A stretch of DNA of 55,938 bases from NCBI GenBank assembly GCA_011048995.1, contig DSCS01000029.1, forward strand, positions 69,942-125,879, in the 5' to 3' direction. Source of the stretch: Bacillota bacterium (GTDB lineage: Bacteria; Macinerneyibacteriota; Macinerneyibacteria; Macinerneyibacteriales; DSCS01). Positions 15,945 to 25,775 of the stretch are shown here, piece after piece (the first letter of the stretch is position 1; every line of letters starts with the position of its first letter). Both the position numbers and the translations under genes were made by a program. A model generated the notes under the pieces. The model searched no databases. It was not told the origin of the DNA and worked only from the letters and a program-made list of their open reading frames with translations.

Positions 15945-15972
15945 AGTGTAAAGTGGGTTTGGGCAACGTCAA
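15945..15972 (-). promoter_or_regulatory. promoter for the EamA transporter
   Basis: On the minus strand TTGACG (15972-15967), 16 bases, then TACACT (15950-15945). The leader would be about 12 bases and contains the ribosome site. Confidence 0.55.
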
Positions 15973-16048
15973 CACAAAAATAGTGTTTTTTATTGAAGAG
16001 TTTTTCATTTATGATACATTTGACTATGTTTTTCAAAAGGAGCTCATT

Positions 16049-17920
16049 ATGAATCAAAAGAGAAGATTAATTGTCCCCGGTGAGTTTAAAAGTGCAAGGA
16101 AACTGTCTTCGTTTCTTAAAGGGCGTCCTGAGATCGCTTTTGTCTCACTGGTCGGGATAGATTTTTTGGGAAATGATACTGATGAGCGTATCCCCGTTCC
16201 CTATTTTTTAAACCATATCAATGAAATCATGGACGGAGGTGTGCAGACGGACGGCTCATCTGTCAATCTTCCGGGTATTGCCACGTTGAATGATGCAAAG
16301 ATCGATTTTTTTGTGGATCCCCGGGGGGAATGGTTTATCGATGAGAACAGGGAATACCCTTTGGATCAGGGGACATATCTCTCTACTTTGCGGATTCCGG
16401 CTTTTTTCAAGCACGGAAGCGATTTTTATTGTTCCCGCTCTCTGCTGAAATCAACATCCTCATTTGTGGAGAAAGCGATCCTGGAACTTGTGAAACAAGA
16501 CCCTTTCTTTCAGGAGGAGTGGGGCTTTTCGGGAGAACGGATCAATGCTGTCTTTTTGACTTTGGGAACAGAATTAGAATTTTGGGTCAGAACACCTGCA
16601 GAGCAGGTCGATCTGGAAGAACTCTCTTTGAGTCAGATGTTAAAAGAAAGTTACTGGAAAAGAACAAAAGGGCAGGTGAGAAATGCATTGGAAGAGGCCC
16701 TTCTCTTATTAGAATCCTATGGTTACGGGGTTGAGATGGGGCATAAAGAGGTCGGAGGAGTCAAAGCCAAGCTGGATCCCGACGGCTCTTTTCACGGCAT
16801 TATGGAACAGTTGGAAATCGATTGGAAATATGATACTCCTTTGGCTGCTGCAGATAAGGAATTATATGCCCGTATTTTAATCAAAGAGACCTTTCGCAGG
16901 AACGGTTTGGAAGTCACTTTTGACGCCAAACCGATTAAAAATGTGGCCGGCTCCGGAGAGCATATGCATTTTGGTATTAGAGTTGTGACCTGTGAAGGGG
17001 AGTCCGTCAATCTTTTTTCTTCCCGCCAACCCGGAACTTTTATGTCCCGTTTCGGGTATGGGGCGCTCATGGGGTTGTTAAAGCATTGGCCCCTGGTCAA
17101 CCCTTTTGTCACATCCTCTCTTGATGCATTAAACCGTCTTAAACCGGGATATGAAGCTCCTGTCTCTGTCGTTGCTTCTTTGGGACGTTCTCCGGATTTC
17201 CCCGGGCGTAACCGAACGGTTCTGGCCGGGCTAATTCGCTCTGATAATCCCCTTTCAACGCGTTTTGAGCTTCGGGCTCCTCATCCGCACACAAACACCT
17301 ATCTGGCTGCAGCTGCTGTTTACTTAGTGATGCTGGACGGCATGAAATACGCCGTGACAAAAGAGATCGGGGATCTGCATCGTGAACTTACAAAAAAACA
17401 CGGCGAAGAAGCGGAGTATCTGGAAACAATGCGTGAATATGTCTCTGAGAAGAATATTTTTACGGCCTTTTCTCATGAAGAAAGAGAGCGCTTTTACGGG
17501 AAAACACCGGAAACGGTCTGGGATATTTTTGAAGCCTTTCGGAAAGCGGATCACACCCCATTTGAAGAATCACCCATGAGCGATGAGATCATTGCTTCGG
17601 CAATGACGGCTTCCCGGAATAAATGGGTCGTGGAAATACGGGATAAAGTCCTGCCTCACTTCAGAAGGGAGCTTTCATCATTCGAAAGACTCCCCCTAAA
17701 AGAAGGCAAACGGGACAAACGATTGTGGGATGACATTCAGAAAAAACGCCGGCTGATGCTTAAAGACAGCCCCGGTTCTTTATCTATGGCGGCTGAGATC
17801 GAGGTTTTATTGGAAAGAGAGGAGTTTAACAAGGCGGCTCTTTTGATGGCCTCTTTTTCAGCGCTCTTTGAGGAGGTTGAAGAGACTTACAGGCTTTATT
17901 TGAAAAACACCATGATCTGA
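16049..17920 (+). CDS. large glutamine synthetase family protein
   Basis: 623 residues from ATG 16049, preceded by AAAAGGAG; codons upstream in the same frame have no ribosome site. Catalytic-domain motifs are recognisable: TLGTELEFWV (first metal-ligand strand), EMGHKEVGGVKAKLD with IMEQLEIDWKY, AGSGEHMHFGI (the ammonia/metal His strand), NRTVLAGLIRSDNPLSTRFELRAPHPHTN. It is longer than type I GS (about 450) and shorter than type III (about 700), with a roughly 150-residue C-terminal extension rich in charged helices. It probably makes glutamine from glutamate, ammonia and ATP, but a related ligase role is possible. Possible promoter elements upstream (TTGAAG at 15993, TATGAT at 16010) are not well spaced. 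Confidence 0.8.
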   Translation: MNQKRRLIVPGEFKSARKLSSFLKGRPEIAFVSLVGIDFLGNDTDERIPVPYFLNHINEIMDGGVQTDGSSVNLPGIATLNDAKIDFFVDPRGEWFIDENREYPLDQGTYLSTLRIPAFFKHGSDFYCSRSLLKSTSSFVEKAILELVKQDPFFQEEWGFSGERINAVFLTLGTELEFWVRTPAEQVDLEELSLSQMLKESYWKRTKGQVRNALEEALLLLESYGYGVEMGHKEVGGVKAKLDPDGSFHGIMEQLEIDWKYDTPLAAADKELYARILIKETFRRNGLEVTFDAKPIKNVAGSGEHMHFGIRVVTCEGESVNLFSSRQPGTFMSRFGYGALMGLLKHWPLVNPFVTSSLDALNRLKPGYEAPVSVVASLGRSPDFPGRNRTVLAGLIRSDNPLSTRFELRAPHPHTNTYLAAAAVYLVMLDGMKYAVTKEIGDLHRELTKKHGEEAEYLETMREYVSEKNIFTAFSHEERERFYGKTPETVWDIFEAFRKADHTPFEESPMSDEIIASAMTASRNKWVVEIRDKVLPHFRRELSSFERLPLKEGKRDKRLWDDIQKKRRLMLKDSPGSLSMAAEIEVLLEREEFNKAALLMASFSALFEEVEETYRLYLKNTMI

Positions 17921-17990
17921 TGTAAAAAGAACCCTTTAAAATGATTTAAGGAAGAGGAAAATCGTTTATCGCAGGATGTTGAAGCAGAAC

Positions 17991-18028
17991 TTGAAATCGT
18001 CCGAAAAGTGTGGTACTTTCTATATGAT
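17991..18028 (+). promoter_or_regulatory. possible promoter for the glmS operon
   Basis: TTGAAA at 17991-17996 is 17 bases from TACTTT (18014-18019), which is preceded by TGG as in an extended -10. A TATGAT at 18023-18028 is an alternative -10 but has no good -35. No glmS ribozyme fits in the short gap. Confidence 0.4.
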
Positions 18029-18054
18029 ACGTAGAAGAAGAAAAGGAGCAGCGT

Positions 18055-19893
18055 ATGTGTGGTATTGTCGGGTATGTCGGCAAGAAAAATGCCGTACCCA
18101 TTCTTATTGACGGATTGAAACGGTTAGAATACCGCGGGTATGATTCGGCCGGGCTGGCTCTTTTGGGGGACAAGGATATTATCATTGATAAAGTAGCCGG
18201 GAAAGTCGATACTCTTGAAAAAAAAATCGAGAAAAAACATTATTTTTCCAATACAGGAATTGCGCATACCCGTTGGGCGACACACGGGGCGCCCAACGAT
18301 ATCAATGCTCATCCGCACTTGGATTGCCGGGGAAATATCGCTGTTGTCCATAATGGTGTCATTGAAAATTATCGGGCCCTGAAAATCTACTTAGAGAAAA
18401 AGGGCCATCAGTTTTATACGGAAACTGATACGGAAGTCCTGGCCCACCTTTTTGAAGAATATCATAAAGGGAATCTTTTCGAGGCCGTGCGGGAAGCTCT
18501 TTTGAATGTTCAGGGGACTTTCGGCATTGCGGTGATTGAAAAAAACCGCCCCGGCAGAATCGTCGCTGCACGGTGGGGAAGCCCTCTGGTCATCGCCAAG
18601 GGTGAAACCGGAGAGTATTTTGTGGCCAGCGATGTAGCAGCTATAGTCCGTTTTACTAAAGATGTTATTTTTCTGGAAGAAGGGGAGATCGTGGAGGTCG
18701 ATGTCGAGAACGGGATTAAGCTCTCTGATATTTCCGACAACCGTGAAAAAAAAATAGAGGTCCATAAAATCGATATGGACCTTACAGAAATCGAGAAAAA
18801 CGGATATCCCCATTTTATGCTTAAAGAGATTCATGAGCAGGGCAGTACAATACTCAACGCCATCCGGGGCCGGCTGGATATTGAGAATGGCGATGCCATT
18901 CTTCAGGGCCTGGCCGATTTTAAAGAATTTTTCAGGCATGTCAACAGGATCATCCTTACCGCGTGCGGGACTTCCTGGCATGCTGCCCTTATCGGAGAAT
19001 ACCTGATTGAAAGCATTGCCGGTATTCCCGTAGAAGTGGAATATGCCAGTGAATTCCGATACAGAAATCCGATTATTGAGGATAAGACAGCCCTTTTTGT
19101 CCTTTCCCAGTCCGGCGAGACCGCCGATACTCTGGCCGCCTTACGGGAAGCGAAACGGAAAGGGGCTCATGTCTTCGGGATCTGCAATGTCGTCGGGTCG
19201 ACCATCGCCCGGGAAACAGATGCCGGAGTCTACATTCATGCCGGACCGGAAATCGGAGTGGCTTCCACGAAAGCTTTTACATCACAGGTTATGGTTTTAG
19301 TGCTCATCGCACTTTATTTAGGACGGAGGCGGGATTATTCACTGACCCAGGGGAAGAAACTTGTCCGTGAAATCCAGGCTCTTCCCGAGAAGATCAAAGA
19401 ACTTCTTCAACAGGAAGAAGATGTTAAAAAAATTGCCCGCTATTTTCAAAAGGCTGATAATGCGCTTTTCCTCGGGAGGCATTTAAATTATCCCGTAGCT
19501 CTGGAGGGAGCATTGAAATTGAAAGAGATATCATATATTCATGCCGAGGGATACCCGGCGGCCGAAATGAAGCACGGGCCTATCGCCCTTATTGATGAGA
19601 ATATGCCCTGTGTGGTTCTGGCTAATGACGATGATGTGATGTATGAAAAGGTCATTACCAATATTCAGGAAGTCAAAGCAAGAAACGGGAAAGTAATCGC
19701 TTTGGCAACCAAGGGGAATCGTAAGATCGTCGAACTGGTGGATGATGTTCTCTATGTTCCCCTTACCGCTTCAGCCCTGACGCCTATAATTAATACGATC
19801 CCCTTACAGCTTTTGGCCTATTATGTTGCCGTCAAAAGAGGTTGTGATGTCGATCAGCCCCGGAATCTGGCAAAAAGCGTGACGGTGGAATAA
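18055..19893 (+). CDS. glmS: glutamine-fructose-6-phosphate aminotransferase (isomerizing)
   Basis: 612 residues, full length. After Met1 is the N-terminal nucleophile Cys2 (MCGIVGYVG), followed by RLEYRGYDSAG and HTRWATHG of the class II glutaminase domain. Two SIS sugar-isomerase domains follow (TACGTSWHAAL, SQSGETADTLAAL, GRHLNYPVALEGALKLKEIS), and the C-terminus ends in RNLAKSVTVE as in canonical GlmS. It makes glucosamine-6-phosphate from fructose-6-phosphate and glutamine for peptidoglycan and lipopolysaccharide. It heads a long run of genes; the next one starts 17 bases after its stop. Confidence 0.97.
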   Translation: MCGIVGYVGKKNAVPILIDGLKRLEYRGYDSAGLALLGDKDIIIDKVAGKVDTLEKKIEKKHYFSNTGIAHTRWATHGAPNDINAHPHLDCRGNIAVVHNGVIENYRALKIYLEKKGHQFYTETDTEVLAHLFEEYHKGNLFEAVREALLNVQGTFGIAVIEKNRPGRIVAARWGSPLVIAKGETGEYFVASDVAAIVRFTKDVIFLEEGEIVEVDVENGIKLSDISDNREKKIEVHKIDMDLTEIEKNGYPHFMLKEIHEQGSTILNAIRGRLDIENGDAILQGLADFKEFFRHVNRIILTACGTSWHAALIGEYLIESIAGIPVEVEYASEFRYRNPIIEDKTALFVLSQSGETADTLAALREAKRKGAHVFGICNVVGSTIARETDAGVYIHAGPEIGVASTKAFTSQVMVLVLIALYLGRRRDYSLTQGKKLVREIQALPEKIKELLQQEEDVKKIARYFQKADNALFLGRHLNYPVALEGALKLKEISYIHAEGYPAAEMKHGPIALIDENMPCVVLANDDDVMYEKVITNIQEVKARNGKVIALATKGNRKIVELVDDVLYVPLTASALTPIINTIPLQLLAYYVAVKRGCDVDQPRNLAKSVTVE

Positions 19894-19910
19894 AATAAGG
19901 AGGTAATGCT

Positions 19911-20573
19911 TTGGGAGTCAATGTCAGCGAAAAAGTATTTGAAAAATTCGGAAGCGAATACATGAAGGGAGACATCGTCTTCTACGAGGGTGAAACAGGG
20001 GAGACAATGTATATTATCTTCAAAGGCAAAGTAAAAATCACAAAAAAATCACGGGATGTAGAGACGACCCTTGCGGTTCTCTCTGACGGAGATTTTTTCG
20101 GAGAGATGTCCATTATCGATGACTATTCCCGAAGCGCTACGGCTATTGTAGAAGAAGACCATACAAAACTCATTGTTATCAACAGGGAAGTCTTTGAATC
20201 TCAAATCCAGTCTAACCCGAAGATCATCATGCAGATCCTCAAAAAAATGAGTGCCCGGATCAGAGATACCGACAAACAGATTGAAAATCTCATGCTTCAG
20301 GACATTGTCTCCCGGATCGTGGGAACATTGAAGATGATCATTTCCAAAAAGGCAAAAGATGAAGAAGGGTTCGTTTTTGATTACAGCGAACTCCAGAAGG
20401 ACATCTCATCCCGCTTGGCATTGCCTATCGGCAAGGTCATGGAAGTGCTTGAGATGCTGATACGCAGCCATATTTCTGTCCTCATCGACGGGAACTATAT
20501 TGTCCGGGATGCTGAAGATTTGTCTAAATTTATGGAGTACCTTGAGTTAAAGGAACGCTACTCCGGGAACTGA
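19911..20573 (+). CDS. Crp/Fnr-family cyclic-nucleotide-binding regulator
   Basis: 220 residues beginning at TTG 19911, which has AAGGAGGT about 6 bases upstream; nearby ATG codons are out of frame. Residues 10-115 form a cyclic nucleotide-binding barrel with the phosphate-binding cassette FGEMSIIDDYSRSATA, in which Glu65 and Arg74 are the ribose and phosphate contacts of cAMP-binding members. A dimerisation helix follows, then a C-terminal winged helix (about 155-205, YSELQKDISSRLALPIGKVMEVLEML). No Fnr-type cysteine cluster is present. With the cyclase and phosphodiesterase genes right behind it, cAMP is the likely effector. The recognition helix is weakly conserved, so its DNA target cannot be guessed. 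Confidence 0.85.
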   Translation: MGVNVSEKVFEKFGSEYMKGDIVFYEGETGETMYIIFKGKVKITKKSRDVETTLAVLSDGDFFGEMSIIDDYSRSATAIVEEDHTKLIVINREVFESQIQSNPKIIMQILKKMSARIRDTDKQIENLMLQDIVSRIVGTLKMIISKKAKDEEGFVFDYSELQKDISSRLALPIGKVMEVLEMLIRSHISVLIDGNYIVRDAEDLSKFMEYLELKERYSGN

Positions 20574-20576
20574 TCT

Positions 20577-22715
20577 ATGAAACGCTTGAAACCGGCTTTT
20601 CTATCCCTGGCTTTGGCATTTTTTATTATTTTGACCATGTTGGTCGTTCCTGCTTTGTGGGATCGCGTGGAAATCATCTTTCACGATCTCCGGGCCCGGC
20701 TCTTTATCCGGGATGGAGGCCTTGAAAAGCTGGAAGGCGTTGATGTCACAGTGGAGAGCATGGATTCTCTGCTTTCCACATTTGTCTTTATCGATATTGA
20801 TGATTATTCTCTGAAGGAGTATGGCCGCTGGCCCTGGAACAGAGAGATTCTGGCCCGGTTTATTCATAAGATTCAGGAGCTTGATCCTCAGCTGGTTTTT
20901 ATTGATATTTATTTCCCGGAAAGCTCCCCGGAAGACCCTTTGCTGAATGAGGCGGCTTCCGCTTACGGGAATATCGGGTTTGTCTACAATTTTCTCATGG
21001 AGAACTCTTATGAAGAGTATGAAGTCGATGAGAAAACACTCTCCAACATCAGAAGATGGGCCGTTCCCGTAAAGGAGCCGCCCAATATTTCTAAAGTAGG
21101 AATGATCCTGCCTACGGTTTCCCCGATTTCGGATCATGTTTTTTTAGGGCATGACTGGATGATGGCCGATGAAGACAATGTCTACAGAAAGATCACCGAA
21201 TATGTTATTTTAGATGGGTACCTTTATCCCTCTCTTCCCGTTATCCTCTATGCTCGTCATCAGGGGATACCTATAGACGACATCAGCCTGGAGGGCCGGG
21301 CTTTAAGAGTCGGATCGAGAGAAATCCCTCTTGACCATGAAGGCCGCCGTTGGGTCGATTACTACAGTTCCTACAGAGGTTATGACCGCTTCAGGCATGT
21401 TTCCTTTGCCGATATTATGAGCGGGCATGCTCAAATCGATTTGACCGGTAAAATTGCTTTTGTGGGATTGACAGCCAGGGGTTTGGCTTCAGCGGCCAAG
21501 GATATTAAAATGACCCCTGTGGGAGAGATGCCCGGCATGGAGTATTTGGCCAACGCGACGTTGAATATTTTTGAAGGCCGTTTTGTTGAAAGTGTTCCCC
21601 AATGGATCAATATCGTTGTGATATTTGCTGTTGCCCTGCTTCTTTCTCTTTTTTCGCAGGTCAGCCGGGGATGGTTGAACATCTTTTTGGCAGGCGCTCT
21701 TCTTGCAGCCTTGATCACAGCCGGTTTTGTTTTATATAAAAGCTCTGTTTATATTCGAATGGCAGAACCGGTGGGGGCGTTCTTTTTCATCTTCCTGGGG
21801 GTGACCTTTTCACGCTATCTTCGCGAAGAATTACAAAAGAAGATGATCCGGGAGATGTTCTCTTCCTATCTTTCGGCAAATATCGTCCATGAACTCATAA
21901 AAAACCCGGCGTTGGCGACTCTTCACGGACAAAAAAGAGAAATGACCGTCCTTTTTTCCGATGTCAAAGGGTTTACTACTTTTACGGAAGAGCATCCTGC
22001 CGAAGAGGTCGTCCAGCGCCTTAATGAGTATCTCAATGAGATGACTGAGATCATCATGGCTCATGAGGGAACTCTGGATAAATTTGTCGGGGATGAGATC
22101 ATGGCCTTATTCGGAGCTCCATTAGCATACGGTTATCATGCTGATGCGGCTGTAAAGACAGCTTTGGCCATGCGGAGAAGGATTAGGAAGCTTCATGCCC
22201 TTTGGAAAACCCAAGGCAAAGATATTCTTGATATGGGTATCGGAATAAACAGCGGTGAAATGTTGGTCGGAAATATCGGAGCCGAGGGGAAAAAAATGGA
22301 TTATACCGTCATTGGCGATAATGTCAATTTGGGGGCACGTATTGAGGGGCTGACCCGCTTTTACGGAGTCGATGTTCTTATTACAGAAGAAACATTCAAG
22401 GAATTGAAATTAAAAGAGACCCGTTCCCGTTGCAGAGAAGTCGATCTGGTCAAAGTGAAGGGGAAGAATGAGCCGACTCGGATTTATGAAGTCATGGAGG
22501 AGGATTATCCCGATATATTCCTCATTAAATATTCTGAAGCGTTGGAAGCCTACCGAAAACGCGAATGGGATCAGGCTGAAGCCCTTTTTACATCAGCGTT
22601 GGATGTTGTCTCTGATGACGGCCCGGGACATCTGCTTTTAGAAAGGGTGCGTGCTTTTCGCCGCAATTCTCCGCCTGAAGGCTGGGACGGCTCTTTTGTC
22701 ATGACAGAAAAATAG
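20577..22715 (+). CDS. CHASE2-sensor class III adenylate cyclase
   Basis: 712 residues. An N-terminal helix (7-27) leads into a periplasmic CHASE2 domain (about 28-340), then three membrane helices (about 344-411) and a cytoplasmic class III cyclase domain (about 453-645). Metal ligands are Asp462 (LFSDVKGFT) and Asp506 (KFVGDEIMA). Lys502 and Asp575 (MDYTVIGDNVN) are the adenine-specifying pair, and Asn584/Arg588 the transition-state pair, so all catalytic residues of an adenylate cyclase homodimer are present. A helical tail follows. It begins 4 bases after the Crp-like gene. CHASE2 ligands are unknown in general; the topology implies sensing of an envelope signal and cytoplasmic cAMP output. 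Confidence 0.92.
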   Translation: MKRLKPAFLSLALAFFIILTMLVVPALWDRVEIIFHDLRARLFIRDGGLEKLEGVDVTVESMDSLLSTFVFIDIDDYSLKEYGRWPWNREILARFIHKIQELDPQLVFIDIYFPESSPEDPLLNEAASAYGNIGFVYNFLMENSYEEYEVDEKTLSNIRRWAVPVKEPPNISKVGMILPTVSPISDHVFLGHDWMMADEDNVYRKITEYVILDGYLYPSLPVILYARHQGIPIDDISLEGRALRVGSREIPLDHEGRRWVDYYSSYRGYDRFRHVSFADIMSGHAQIDLTGKIAFVGLTARGLASAAKDIKMTPVGEMPGMEYLANATLNIFEGRFVESVPQWINIVVIFAVALLLSLFSQVSRGWLNIFLAGALLAALITAGFVLYKSSVYIRMAEPVGAFFFIFLGVTFSRYLREELQKKMIREMFSSYLSANIVHELIKNPALATLHGQKREMTVLFSDVKGFTTFTEEHPAEEVVQRLNEYLNEMTEIIMAHEGTLDKFVGDEIMALFGAPLAYGYHADAAVKTALAMRRRIRKLHALWKTQGKDILDMGIGINSGEMLVGNIGAEGKKMDYTVIGDNVNLGARIEGLTRFYGVDVLITEETFKELKLKETRSRCREVDLVKVKGKNEPTRIYEVMEEDYPDIFLIKYSEALEAYRKREWDQAEALFTSALDVVSDDGPGHLLLERVRAFRRNSPPEGWDGSFVMTEK

Positions 22716-22725
22716 GGAGGATGAT

Positions 22726-23505
22726 ATGGAAATCAGGATTTTGGGATGTTATGGGAATCAGCTTCCCGGTTATAAGACCACCGGCTTTGTTATTAACAAA
22801 GCTATCGCCCTTGATGCCGGCTCCCTGACTTCATCACTGGAATTAGACGAACAGCTGATGCTGGATGCAGTTCTGCTGACTCATTCTCATATCGATCATA
22901 TCAAGGACCTGGGGTTTCTTGGGGATAATATTATCGGAAGAAAGCGTAACCCGGTTTCTCTTTTCGGAGGGAAAAAGACACTACACGCCATCGCTGACCA
23001 CTATTTTAATAATAGCCTGTGGCCCGATTTCACTCAGATCCCTACAAAAGAGAATCCGGTGTATGTTTATCGGGAAATAGAGAATAAAAAGGAATTCGAT
23101 CTTTTCGGGCTGACCGTTTTGCCCGTTCAAGTTCCTCATCCTGTCTTCACTTTTTCCTATTTTATCAGGGATCATAAAAGCACAGTCCTTCATGTGAGTG
23201 ATACCGGTGAGACAGAAGAAGTCTGGGCCCTGGCAGATCAGGAACCTCATTTAAAGGCCATATTTTTAGAGACATCTTTTCCCAATGAAATGAAGGGCTT
23301 AGCTCAGGCATCCAAGCATTTGACACCGGAGATGATGGGAGAAGAACTGAAAAAATTAAAAAAGAGGAAAAATCTTGTCGATGTCTATATTTATCATTTA
23401 AAACCCCTTTATATTGACAAATTGAAAGAAGAACTCGCGAAAGTAGAGGTGGAGGGATTCCGGATCCGGCTGATGGAACAGGATTCTGTGATCAGGTATG
23501 TATGA
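22726..23505 (+). CDS. class II 3',5'-cyclic-nucleotide phosphodiesterase (metallo-beta-lactamase fold)
   Basis: 259 residues. The metal motif is THSHIDH (His53, His55, Asp57, His58), with HVSDTGET supplying a later aspartate. Beyond the general fold, it carries features of class II cAMP phosphodiesterases (CpdP, yeast PDE1): FNNSLWPDF, FLETSFPNE, KHLTPEMMGEEL and YHLKP. No signal peptide is seen, unlike Vibrio CpdP, so it should act in the cytoplasm on cAMP made by the cyclase encoded upstream. A generic MBL hydrolase is the alternative. It starts 10 bases after the cyclase gene, behind a GGGAGGA ribosome site, and overlaps the next gene by 8 bases. Confidence 0.82.
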   Translation: MEIRILGCYGNQLPGYKTTGFVINKAIALDAGSLTSSLELDEQLMLDAVLLTHSHIDHIKDLGFLGDNIIGRKRNPVSLFGGKKTLHAIADHYFNNSLWPDFTQIPTKENPVYVYREIENKKEFDLFGLTVLPVQVPHPVFTFSYFIRDHKSTVLHVSDTGETEEVWALADQEPHLKAIFLETSFPNEMKGLAQASKHLTPEMMGEELKKLKKRKNLVDVYIYHLKPLYIDKLKEELAKVEVEGFRIRLMEQDSVIRYV

Positions 23506-24805
23506 TCCTGTTGAGATTATTAGGAAAAAAAGAGACGGCGGATTACTGACCCGGCAGGAACTGCACTATTTTGTGCGGGATTATGTCAAGGGAGAAATCC
23601 GGGATGAGCAGATGTCGGCTCTTCTTATGGCCGGCTTCATCCGGGGTTTCTCTGTAAAAGAGACAGTTTCACTCACTGAGATTATGACAGAATCGGGGGA
23701 ACAGATCGATCTGGGGGGGATCCCGCGCCCGAAAATCGACAAGCACAGCACGGGAGGCGTGGGAGACAAGGTCTCCCTTCTTTTGGCCCCTCTTCTGGCC
23801 GAATTAGGATATTGCAACCCGATGATGGCCGGGAGGGGATTAGGACATACAGGGGGGACGATTGATAAACTGGAATCTATCCGGGGATATCAAAGCGAAA
23901 TCCCCATACGGGATCTGAAAAACCGTTTGCAGGCTACCGGCGCAGTGATCTTCTCTCAATCTGATGAGATCGCTCCGGCTGACAAAAAGATGTATGCCCT
24001 TCGGGATGTCACCGGGACAGTGGAATCGATTCCGTTGATTACCGCCAGCATTGTCTCCAAGAAGAAAGCTGAGGGTATCGAGGCTATTGTCTATGACGTT
24101 AAATGCGGTAACGGCGCCTTTATGAAAACAGAAAAAGAAGCCTTGGCTTTGGCCGAATCTTTGGTTCGTGTCTCTCAGAAGACGGGCTTGAAAGCACGGG
24201 CATTGATTACTGATATGAATCAGCCTTTGGGCTATGCCGTGGGGAATGCCCTGGAAGTCATGGAGGCTCTCCTTTTTATGAGCGGGGAGCGGGTTGACAG
24301 CAGGCTTAAAGAGATTACATACGCTTTGGCTTATGAACTTCATTCGCTCTATGCGGATGAAGAGAGAGAAGAGTTTTATGAGAAATGTGAAGCTCTTTTC
24401 CGTTCGGGACAAGTGTATGAGCGTTTCGCGGCGATGATGGCCGATGCCGGGGGAGACCGGCATTCTTTAGAGACGATCTGTAAAGGTGAATTTATCGAAA
24501 AGATGATACAGATCCGAAGCAAGCAGGATGGCCGGGTCAAGGAAATTGACACCTTCGCCGTGGGGAAAGCGTTGATCTACCTCGGCGGGGGAAGGCTCAG
24601 AAAAGGGGATGTGATCGATTATTCTGTGGGATTCACGTTTCATGTGGGATGCGGTGATGCCGTAAAAATCGGCGATCCCCTGATCACCGTTTATTATGCA
24701 GATGAAAATAAAAAAGGGATGGTCATGACCCTTTTGGAAAAATCGATACTTATCAGTGAATCGGATTATGAAGAAAAACCGCTTGTTTATCGTTCTGTCT
24801 GCTAG
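23498..24805 (+). CDS. pyrimidine-nucleoside (thymidine) phosphorylase
   Basis: 435 residues, normal length. The signature KHSTGGVGDKVSLLLAPL near residues 80-97 and the glycine-rich MAGRGLGHTGGTIDKLES identify the thymidine/pyrimidine-nucleoside phosphorylase family, and the C-terminal domain has the VGFTFHVGCGDAV barrel region. It cleaves thymidine, deoxyuridine or uridine with phosphate to base and pentose-1-phosphate in salvage and carbon use. DeoA and Pdp differ mainly in substrate range and cannot be separated here. Nucleoside catabolism under Crp-cAMP control is classical in E. coli, which fits its place behind the cAMP genes. Confidence 0.92.
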   Translation: MYDPVEIIRKKRDGGLLTRQELHYFVRDYVKGEIRDEQMSALLMAGFIRGFSVKETVSLTEIMTESGEQIDLGGIPRPKIDKHSTGGVGDKVSLLLAPLLAELGYCNPMMAGRGLGHTGGTIDKLESIRGYQSEIPIRDLKNRLQATGAVIFSQSDEIAPADKKMYALRDVTGTVESIPLITASIVSKKKAEGIEAIVYDVKCGNGAFMKTEKEALALAESLVRVSQKTGLKARALITDMNQPLGYAVGNALEVMEALLFMSGERVDSRLKEITYALAYELHSLYADEEREEFYEKCEALFRSGQVYERFAAMMADAGGDRHSLETICKGEFIEKMIQIRSKQDGRVKEIDTFAVGKALIYLGGGRLRKGDVIDYSVGFTFHVGCGDAVKIGDPLITVYYADENKKGMVMTLLEKSILISESDYEEKPLVYRSVC

Positions 24806-25775
24806 CTTTCTCCTTCTTCTCGGGGCGGGCCTCATCTATCAACAGATTATCACTTCTCCTCCCCTTGCAGAATATCGTTTTTTTGCTATGGATACGCTCT
24901 GTCTGTTGAAAGTCGATAAAAATCATGCGGATATTTTACCTCAGATGGAAAATGAGATTCGCCGGATGGAGAAAAAGTATTCCCGGTATCGGGATGATTC
25001 CCTGATCAGGGAATTGAATATGAGTGGCTCTGTGGAGGATGAAACGCTGGCAATGCTTTTGCGGAGCTATTTTAAGGAGAGCGAAATCATACGCCGTTAT
25101 TTTCGCCCGGAAATGGGCGTCCTTATGGATCTCTGGGATTTTCCCGGAGGGGGAAAGATTCCTAAACGGCAGACCTTGCGGCAAGCTTTGGATGTTTTGT
25201 CCCGGGAACACGTTCAAGTCCGGGGAAATACAGTTTCTCTCGCGCAGGGTCTTTCTCTTGACTTAGGAGGTTTGTTTAAAGGCTGGATGCTGGACCGCCT
25301 TATGGAGATGGCCTTCAAAAGAGGAGTGCGTTATGCCGTTATCAATCTGGGTGGAGATGTGGCCCTTTTTTCAAAACGCCCCCGCTTGTGGAAAATAGGG
25401 GTACGGAACCCTCGCGGGGACGGGGTATCGACCTGGATTGAAAAAAAAGACTCTCTGCTTTTTGTGGTGACATCCGGTGATTATGAGCGTTTTTTCATGA
25501 AAGAGAATACGCGCTATCATCATATACTAAGTCCCCTGACCGGATATCCTGCCCGTGATGTTCAAAGTGTAACCGTTATCGATTCCTCCGGCCTTCGCGC
25601 GGACATTCTTTCTACGGCCTATTTTGCCGGGGCCCAGGAAAAGGAAGCTTTTTTCGAAGCTGAAGATCCCCGGACGTCTATTCTTATGATCTATCAGGAC
25701 GGGCAGAGAACAATGTGGAATCTAGAAGAGGAGAAAAATGAAAGAGGCTTTATTTTTTACAGCTCTTCCCCATGA
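24768..25775 (+). CDS. apbE: FAD:protein FMN transferase (ApbE)
   Basis: 335 residues from ATG 24768, inside the end of the preceding gene; an in-frame GTG four codons earlier is possible. The N-terminus MKKNRLFIVLSASFLLLLGAGLIY is a signal anchor without a lipobox cysteine. ApbE motifs are AMDTLCLL, LDLGGLFKGWMLDR, AVINLGGDVALF and HHILSPLTGYPARDVQSVTV, the last binding Mg2+ and FAD. The enzyme moves FMN from FAD to Thr in (S/T)GATxT motifs of NqrC/RnfG and NqrB/RnfD; such sites are encoded near 51.5 and 52.6 kb. It overlaps the next gene by 38 bases. Confidence 0.92.
   Translation: MKKNRLFIVLSASFLLLLGAGLIYQQIITSPPLAEYRFFAMDTLCLLKVDKNHADILPQMENEIRRMEKKYSRYRDDSLIRELNMSGSVEDETLAMLLRSYFKESEIIRRYFRPEMGVLMDLWDFPGGGKIPKRQTLRQALDVLSREHVQVRGNTVSLAQGLSLDLGGLFKGWMLDRLMEMAFKRGVRYAVINLGGDVALFSKRPRLWKIGVRNPRGDGVSTWIEKKDSLLFVVTSGDYERFFMKENTRYHHILSPLTGYPARDVQSVTVIDSSGLRADILSTAYFAGAQEKEAFFEAEDPRTSILMIYQDGQRTMWNLEEEKNERGFIFYSSSP

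Follow-up and report, generated by a model that had tools for sequence, protein, structure and literature searches.

Class II phosphodiesterases (PDEs) have been divided into typical enzymes and atypical ones such as YhfI and Rv1339 (PMC9293780). In Campylobacterota, CHASE2 cyclases cluster with a PDE, stated to hydrolyse cyclic AMP (cAMP), and with FecR and TPR proteins, and the authors inferred that this type of cluster has spread horizontally across phyla (PMC9239204). In Dictyostelium, GbpA and GbpB are class IIb PDEs whose C-terminal cyclic-nucleotide-binding (CNB) domains activate the upstream metallo-beta-lactamase PDE domain (PMC11988041). Here we describe three consecutive genes, encoding a Crp-like receptor, a CHASE2 adenylate cyclase and a class II PDE, in a 55,938-nucleotide stretch of contig DSCS01000029.1 from a Bacillota bacterium (the window). 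Judged from their sequences, they probably (at roughly 0.75) constitute a self-contained cAMP signalling cassette, in which the cyclase would make cAMP, the Crp-like protein bind it and the PDE hydrolyse it. As the clustering of CHASE2 cyclases with PDEs has been published, this kind of cluster is known, and the window shares it. Unlike the Campylobacterota cluster, the window unit includes a Crp-like receptor, has glmS and a nucleoside phosphorylase gene as immediate neighbours, and shows no FecR or TPR genes among the seven genes scanned (15953 to 25775). No description of the triad, or of the clade of PDE-linked receptors described below, was found in the open-licence papers searched, which is weak evidence of absence.

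The three genes are arranged head to tail on the + strand. The receptor gene (19911..20573; 220 residues, TTG start) is separated by 3 bases (20574-20576) from the cyclase gene (20577..22715; 712 residues), which is followed after 10 bases (22716-22725) by the PDE gene (22726..23505; 259 residues). Shine-Dalgarno-like sequences accompany the genes of the triad. The open reading frames (ORFs) fall exactly where a preliminary description of the stretch had put them, within 3.6 kb on one strand and with the same two short gaps.

The cyclase matches both CHASE2 (PF05226, 133.2 bits; cut-off 26.3) and Guanylate_cyc (PF00211, 87.9 bits; cut-off 21.9), and its closest sequence in the PDB is that of Pseudomonas aeruginosa CyaB (3r5g, E 4.3e-40). 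Residues D462, K502, D506, T577, N584 and R588 are invariant across five aligned cyclases, in agreement with the earlier claim of a CHASE2 cyclase retaining its catalytic and adenine-specifying residues. We take D462 and D506 to be the metal-binding aspartates, K502 and T577 the adenine-specifying Lys/Thr pair, and N584 and R588 the transition-state Asn and Arg. These assignments bear on the alternative that the signalling nucleotide is cGMP instead of cAMP. The best sequence matches of the receptor are cGMP-dependent kinases, as that alternative would predict, but the K502/T577 pair is presumably that of class IIIb adenylate cyclases and the nearest solved relative of the cyclase is CyaB, which together make cGMP very unlikely. 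On the opposite strand within the cyclase gene, positions 22300-22327 contain a perfect TTGACA-16-TATAAT promoter-like match, which may be due to chance.

The third protein scores 56.6 bits against PF02112 (cut-off 23.7), and the metal ligands of its HxHxDH motif (H53, H55, D57 and H58), together with H138, D159 and H224, are invariant in all 27 aligned PDEs. Its AlphaFold2 model, built from this 27-row alignment, has a predicted local distance difference test score (pLDDT) of 96.8. Foldseek places Bacillus subtilis YhfI (6kns) and yeast PDE1 (4ojv) as the best matches to this model, 4ojv having the top query-normalised TM-score (0.83) among the 50 matches listed. The same yeast enzyme is the best PDB match by sequence. 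In common with class II PDEs such as yeast PDE1 and Aliivibrio CpdP (PF02112), the window protein has a metallo-beta-lactamase fold and the HxHxDH motif, and it has the FN..WPD stretch of PDE1; it differs in being compact and only ~20% identical to the closest solved structures. The product of 22726-23505 is thus a predicted class II PDE hydrolysing cAMP, and the earlier assignment stands as regards the family, with hydrolysis as a prediction. It is very unlikely that the true substrate is a different one (as for an RNase Z-like enzyme, or some other cyclic nucleotide) and that the position beside a cyclase has no functional meaning. The generic Lactamase_B_2 model scores almost as well as PF02112 (52.8 bits), and RNase Z, PhnP and Apyc1 also appear among the Foldseek matches; the RNase Z models, however, score far below their cut-offs on this protein, PF02112 exceeds its own, the FN..WPD stretch is shared with yeast PDE1, and linkage to a cyclase is recurrent.

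The receptor contains a CNB domain (residues 16-102; PF00027, 77.8 bits, cut-off 27.5), a dimer helix (103-145), a degenerate winged helix (154-199) and a conserved tail helix (200-218). By alignment, its pocket residues G64, E65, R74, S75 and T120 correspond to G71, E72, R82, S83 and T127 of Escherichia coli CRP. The AlphaFold2 model is of medium confidence overall (pLDDT 73.3) and reaches ~91 over the C-terminal domain, which consists of a winged helix with an added tail helix; the best Foldseek match is Thermus CAP (4ev0). The receptor resembles Crp/Fnr proteins (E. coli CRP, Mycobacterium tuberculosis CRP, GlxR) in its CNB domain with an intact pocket, its dimer helix and its winged-helix topology. 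It differs from them in its weakly conserved helix-turn-helix (HTH), in the extra tail helix and in the absence of R180, E181 and R185, the corresponding positions reading I, G and E. No HTH_Crp_2 match was returned for the window receptor by Pfam. The preliminary description had called this protein a Crp-like regulator with intact cAMP contacts; the contacts are confirmed, but because the DNA-reading head is degenerate the label is only half right.

The cassette is real and conserved across lineages, and is not an accident of one genome. Comparison of sequences and structures establishes the three families, their intact active or binding sites, their tight linkage, and the recurrence of the triad and of its pairs. 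In the sister genome (L026; loci are given L numbers) the triad is complete, with 90% identity for the receptor, 75% for the cyclase and 88% for the PDE, and the order is conserved along the whole stretch between a glutamine-synthetase-like gene and apbE, triad included, and also past apbE. The order cyclase-receptor-PDE is found in two other families (L030 and L032), and the order of the window itself, receptor-cyclase-PDE, in a Nitrospirae metagenome-assembled genome (L046). A Nitrospiraceae locus (L061) may share the latter order, but the receptor there is matched only weakly (109 bits) and the reading frame of the cyclase is broken. The proposal that writer, reader and eraser lie in one unit is thereby supported on three counts: the proteins belong to the expected families, the sister genome conserves the unit, and triads and pairs recur in different phyla. 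Absence of the triad from all relatives had been named beforehand as the outcome that would count against it, and the neighbourhood comparison found the triad in L026, L030, L032 and L046.

Pairs of cyclase and PDE or of receptor and PDE are commoner than full triads. When named genomes were scanned with the PDE alone, using a five-row alignment, 80 loci were obtained, at 29 of which a same-strand cyclase-domain gene directly adjoins the PDE gene (25 of these with CHASE2); farther off in the flanks of the 80, just one same-strand cyclase was seen. The PDE lies beside a cyclase alone in L034, and five loci have a receptor-PDE pair with no cyclase alongside (L027, L028, L029, L031 and L047). At one of these a single TAA interrupts the PDE frame of G016 (L028:3330-4103), representing either a pseudogene or an assembly error. 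In contrast to the window, four PDEs of Campylobacterota carry fused extra domains (L069:4846-6768, L071:4053-5993, L119:5-1927 and L074:460-2790). These are GAF and HD/HD_5 (HD-GYP-like) domains in the two that were scanned, L069 and L074, which suggests that turnover of cAMP and of cyclic di-GMP may combine in a single polypeptide. The fused gene lies directly 3' of a CHASE2 cyclase gene in both L069 and L071.

The linked receptors were compared by means of a model (A1) built from nine of them. A search of 36 genomes with this model gave nine strong clade members, all nine adjoining a PDE gene, and no other protein above 194 bits among the matches listed. As these nine had themselves built the model, their scores of 299-340 bits, obtained by its own training sequences, were not used as proof, and the comparison relied on a tree and on scores of sequences held out of the model. 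When held out, clade members reach 217-304 bits, whereas the best unlinked protein reaches 213-220. In the maximum-likelihood tree, which left out the best-scoring unlinked protein (a two-CNB protein), the 11 linked receptors form one clade with support of 84/84, recovered in 86% of bootstrap trees. The cAMP pocket is well preserved within the clade: G-E and R occur in all 11 members and Ser in nine, and the C-helix Thr is either Thr or Ala.

The DNA-reading head has fared differently. The complete R180/E181/R185 triad is present in none of the 11 clade members, and at least two of the three residues are found in 0/11 of them versus 14/20 unlinked proteins, a comparison for which the Fisher test takes related sequences as independent. 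Mean pairwise identity over the HTH helices is 28% in the clade and 46% in canonical Crp-like proteins, whereas over the CNB domain the clade is the closer group overall (53% against 41%), and over the tail helix the values are 46% and 14%. The F-helix has a mean net charge of -0.8 in the clade, compared with +1.15 in the 20 unlinked proteins. The combination of low HTH and high tail-helix conservation suggests, at the level of sequence, that DNA reading has been relaxed and a new conserved surface acquired. Recognition of the usual Crp site on DNA by this receptor is unlikely.

We infer the cue, the three activities and the sharing of one cAMP pool, and the cassette may be pictured as follows. 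The CHASE2 domain would sense an extracytoplasmic cue, upon which the cyclase would raise cAMP; the Crp-like receptor would bind it, and the PDE would hydrolyse it and so reset the signal, with co-expression setting the pool. The output of the receptor could then pass to other DNA, by way of its diverged winged helix, or to a partner protein, for which the PDE is the prime candidate, and these two versions appear about equally likely. Each corresponds to one account of how the cassette gives its output. In the first, the locus is an ordinary Crp-type circuit whose receptor acts as a cAMP-dependent transcription factor on a diverged operator, controlling the unit and other genes, while cyclase and PDE just set the cAMP level. 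This is a real contender, at rather under even odds. It accords with the CNB and winged-helix topology retained in the receptor model (the extra tail helix apart), with a catabolite activator protein as the top structural match, and with the HTH_Crp_2 matches of certain orthologues (see below). It is less easily reconciled with the loss of R180/E181/R185 throughout the clade, the weakly conserved HTH and its negatively charged F-helix. Nor did an operator search upstream of glmS yield any inverted repeat except TTTAAA, and a palindromic operator at that position was dropped as a candidate.

In the second account, cAMP-bound receptor regulates the PDE, and the output is a cAMP pulse or set-point for other CNB proteins. 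We put this forward tentatively, at odds a little below those of the first account. The receptor-PDE core recurs without an adjoining cyclase at the five loci named above, and the tail helix is conserved. A single ORF (L035:8512-9936) fuses a PDE domain to a Crp-like receptor. Several betaproteobacterial loci of Burkholderiales type have a cyclase gene, a PDE gene and then a gene for a CNB-rhodanese protein lacking an HTH, which directly follows the PDE in L073:6776-7858 and L103:4513-5595. GbpA and GbpB provide a precedent (PMC11988041), in that a metallo-beta-lactamase PDE is coupled to CNB domains and the PDE-CNB order is that of the L035 fusion. They differ in being single proteins with two CNB domains, whereas the window genes are separate and fusion is seen only in L035, and activation is known for the Gbp proteins only. 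Against regulation of the PDE by the receptor, the fused PDE of L035 keeps its catalytic motifs but has lost the WPDFT stretch, and gene adjacency by itself is no proof of contact. A more far-reaching proposal is that the whole PDE-linked clade consists of cAMP receptors turned from transcription factors into detachable regulatory subunits of class II PDEs, giving a built-in negative feedback that parallels Dictyostelium GbpB; this is speculative and on balance unlikely.

Several observations weigh against the cassette or against the account of its receptor given here. Many PDE homologues have neither partner nearby, and the sole other genome of the order (88% complete) is without a PDE and has no close receptor. 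The window receptor lies near the edge of its clade, its held-out score of 216.5 bits being narrowly above the 212.5 bits of the top-scoring unlinked protein. HTH_Crp_2 matches, with E up to 0.01, are obtained for seven of nine receptor orthologues. The six unlinked proteins without the R/E/R triad include the nearest sisters of the clade, and because these Crp-like proteins have lost it too, the loss alone does not implicate the PDE. Finally, the window's own genome (1.88 Mb) encodes three PF00211 and four PF00027 domains, so that two further cyclases and three further CNB domains exist besides the cassette. With one PF02112 gene and one CHASE2 protein in the genome, the cassette is its only CHASE2/PDE-II system, though not the sole possible source of cyclic nucleotide; the two further cyclases rule out the triad as the cell's only cAMP system, and the cassette does not account for the whole of cAMP signalling in this cell. 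Two small adjacent CNB-only proteins in the same genome (L038:8921-9842) are candidate further cyclic-nucleotide readers.

Cyclase, receptor and PDE in one compact cassette amount to a portable cAMP circuit of natural origin, in a lineage where the biology of cAMP is apparently unstudied. The lost DNA-reading head of the receptor is the part of the finding most worth experiment. Should the receptor act on the PDE and not on DNA, it would be an instance of a Crp-derived protein converted to an enzyme regulator and would caution against labelling every Crp-like protein a transcription factor.

The seven genes scanned comprise, in order, the glutamine-synthetase-like gene, glmS, the triad, the nucleoside phosphorylase gene and ApbE. 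On the + strand glmS (18055..19893; TIGR01135, 811 bits) ends 17 bases upstream of the receptor gene, and the pyrimidine-nucleoside phosphorylase gene (23498..24805, also +; TIGR02644, 488.6 bits) overlaps the PDE gene by 8 bases; the sister genome has the same order at both ends. The intergenic region before glmS (17921..18054, +), of which ~40 bases are partly conserved in the two-genome alignment, is likely to be the promoter region of the unit. It had been suggested from these neighbours that the circuit is coupled to amino-sugar and nucleoside metabolism. The flanks do not support such control, since glmS and the phosphorylase gene adjoin the triad in this genus alone (two genomes), and the flanks elsewhere hold different genes, often accD-folC. 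At 14 of 90 loci, from unrelated phyla, accD (acetyl-CoA carboxylase beta), often then followed by folC, begins within ~425 bases after the PDE gene (L027, L028, L031, L032, L033, L041, L045, L046, L049, L050, L053, L059, L062 and L080). A search for accD in the window's own genome gave only weak carboxyltransferase-like matches of 30-33% identity. Because of the recurrence across phyla, these accD-folC neighbourhoods included, the connection of cAMP turnover with metabolism can be tested in hosts amenable to experiment. Foreign origin of the triad was rejected on base composition, as the GC content at third codon positions is 0.454-0.543 in its genes and 0.433-0.534 in near neighbours. The gene at 15953-17920 encodes a 655-residue glutamine-synthetase-like protein that scores far below the GlnA cut-off and has a long C-terminal extension.

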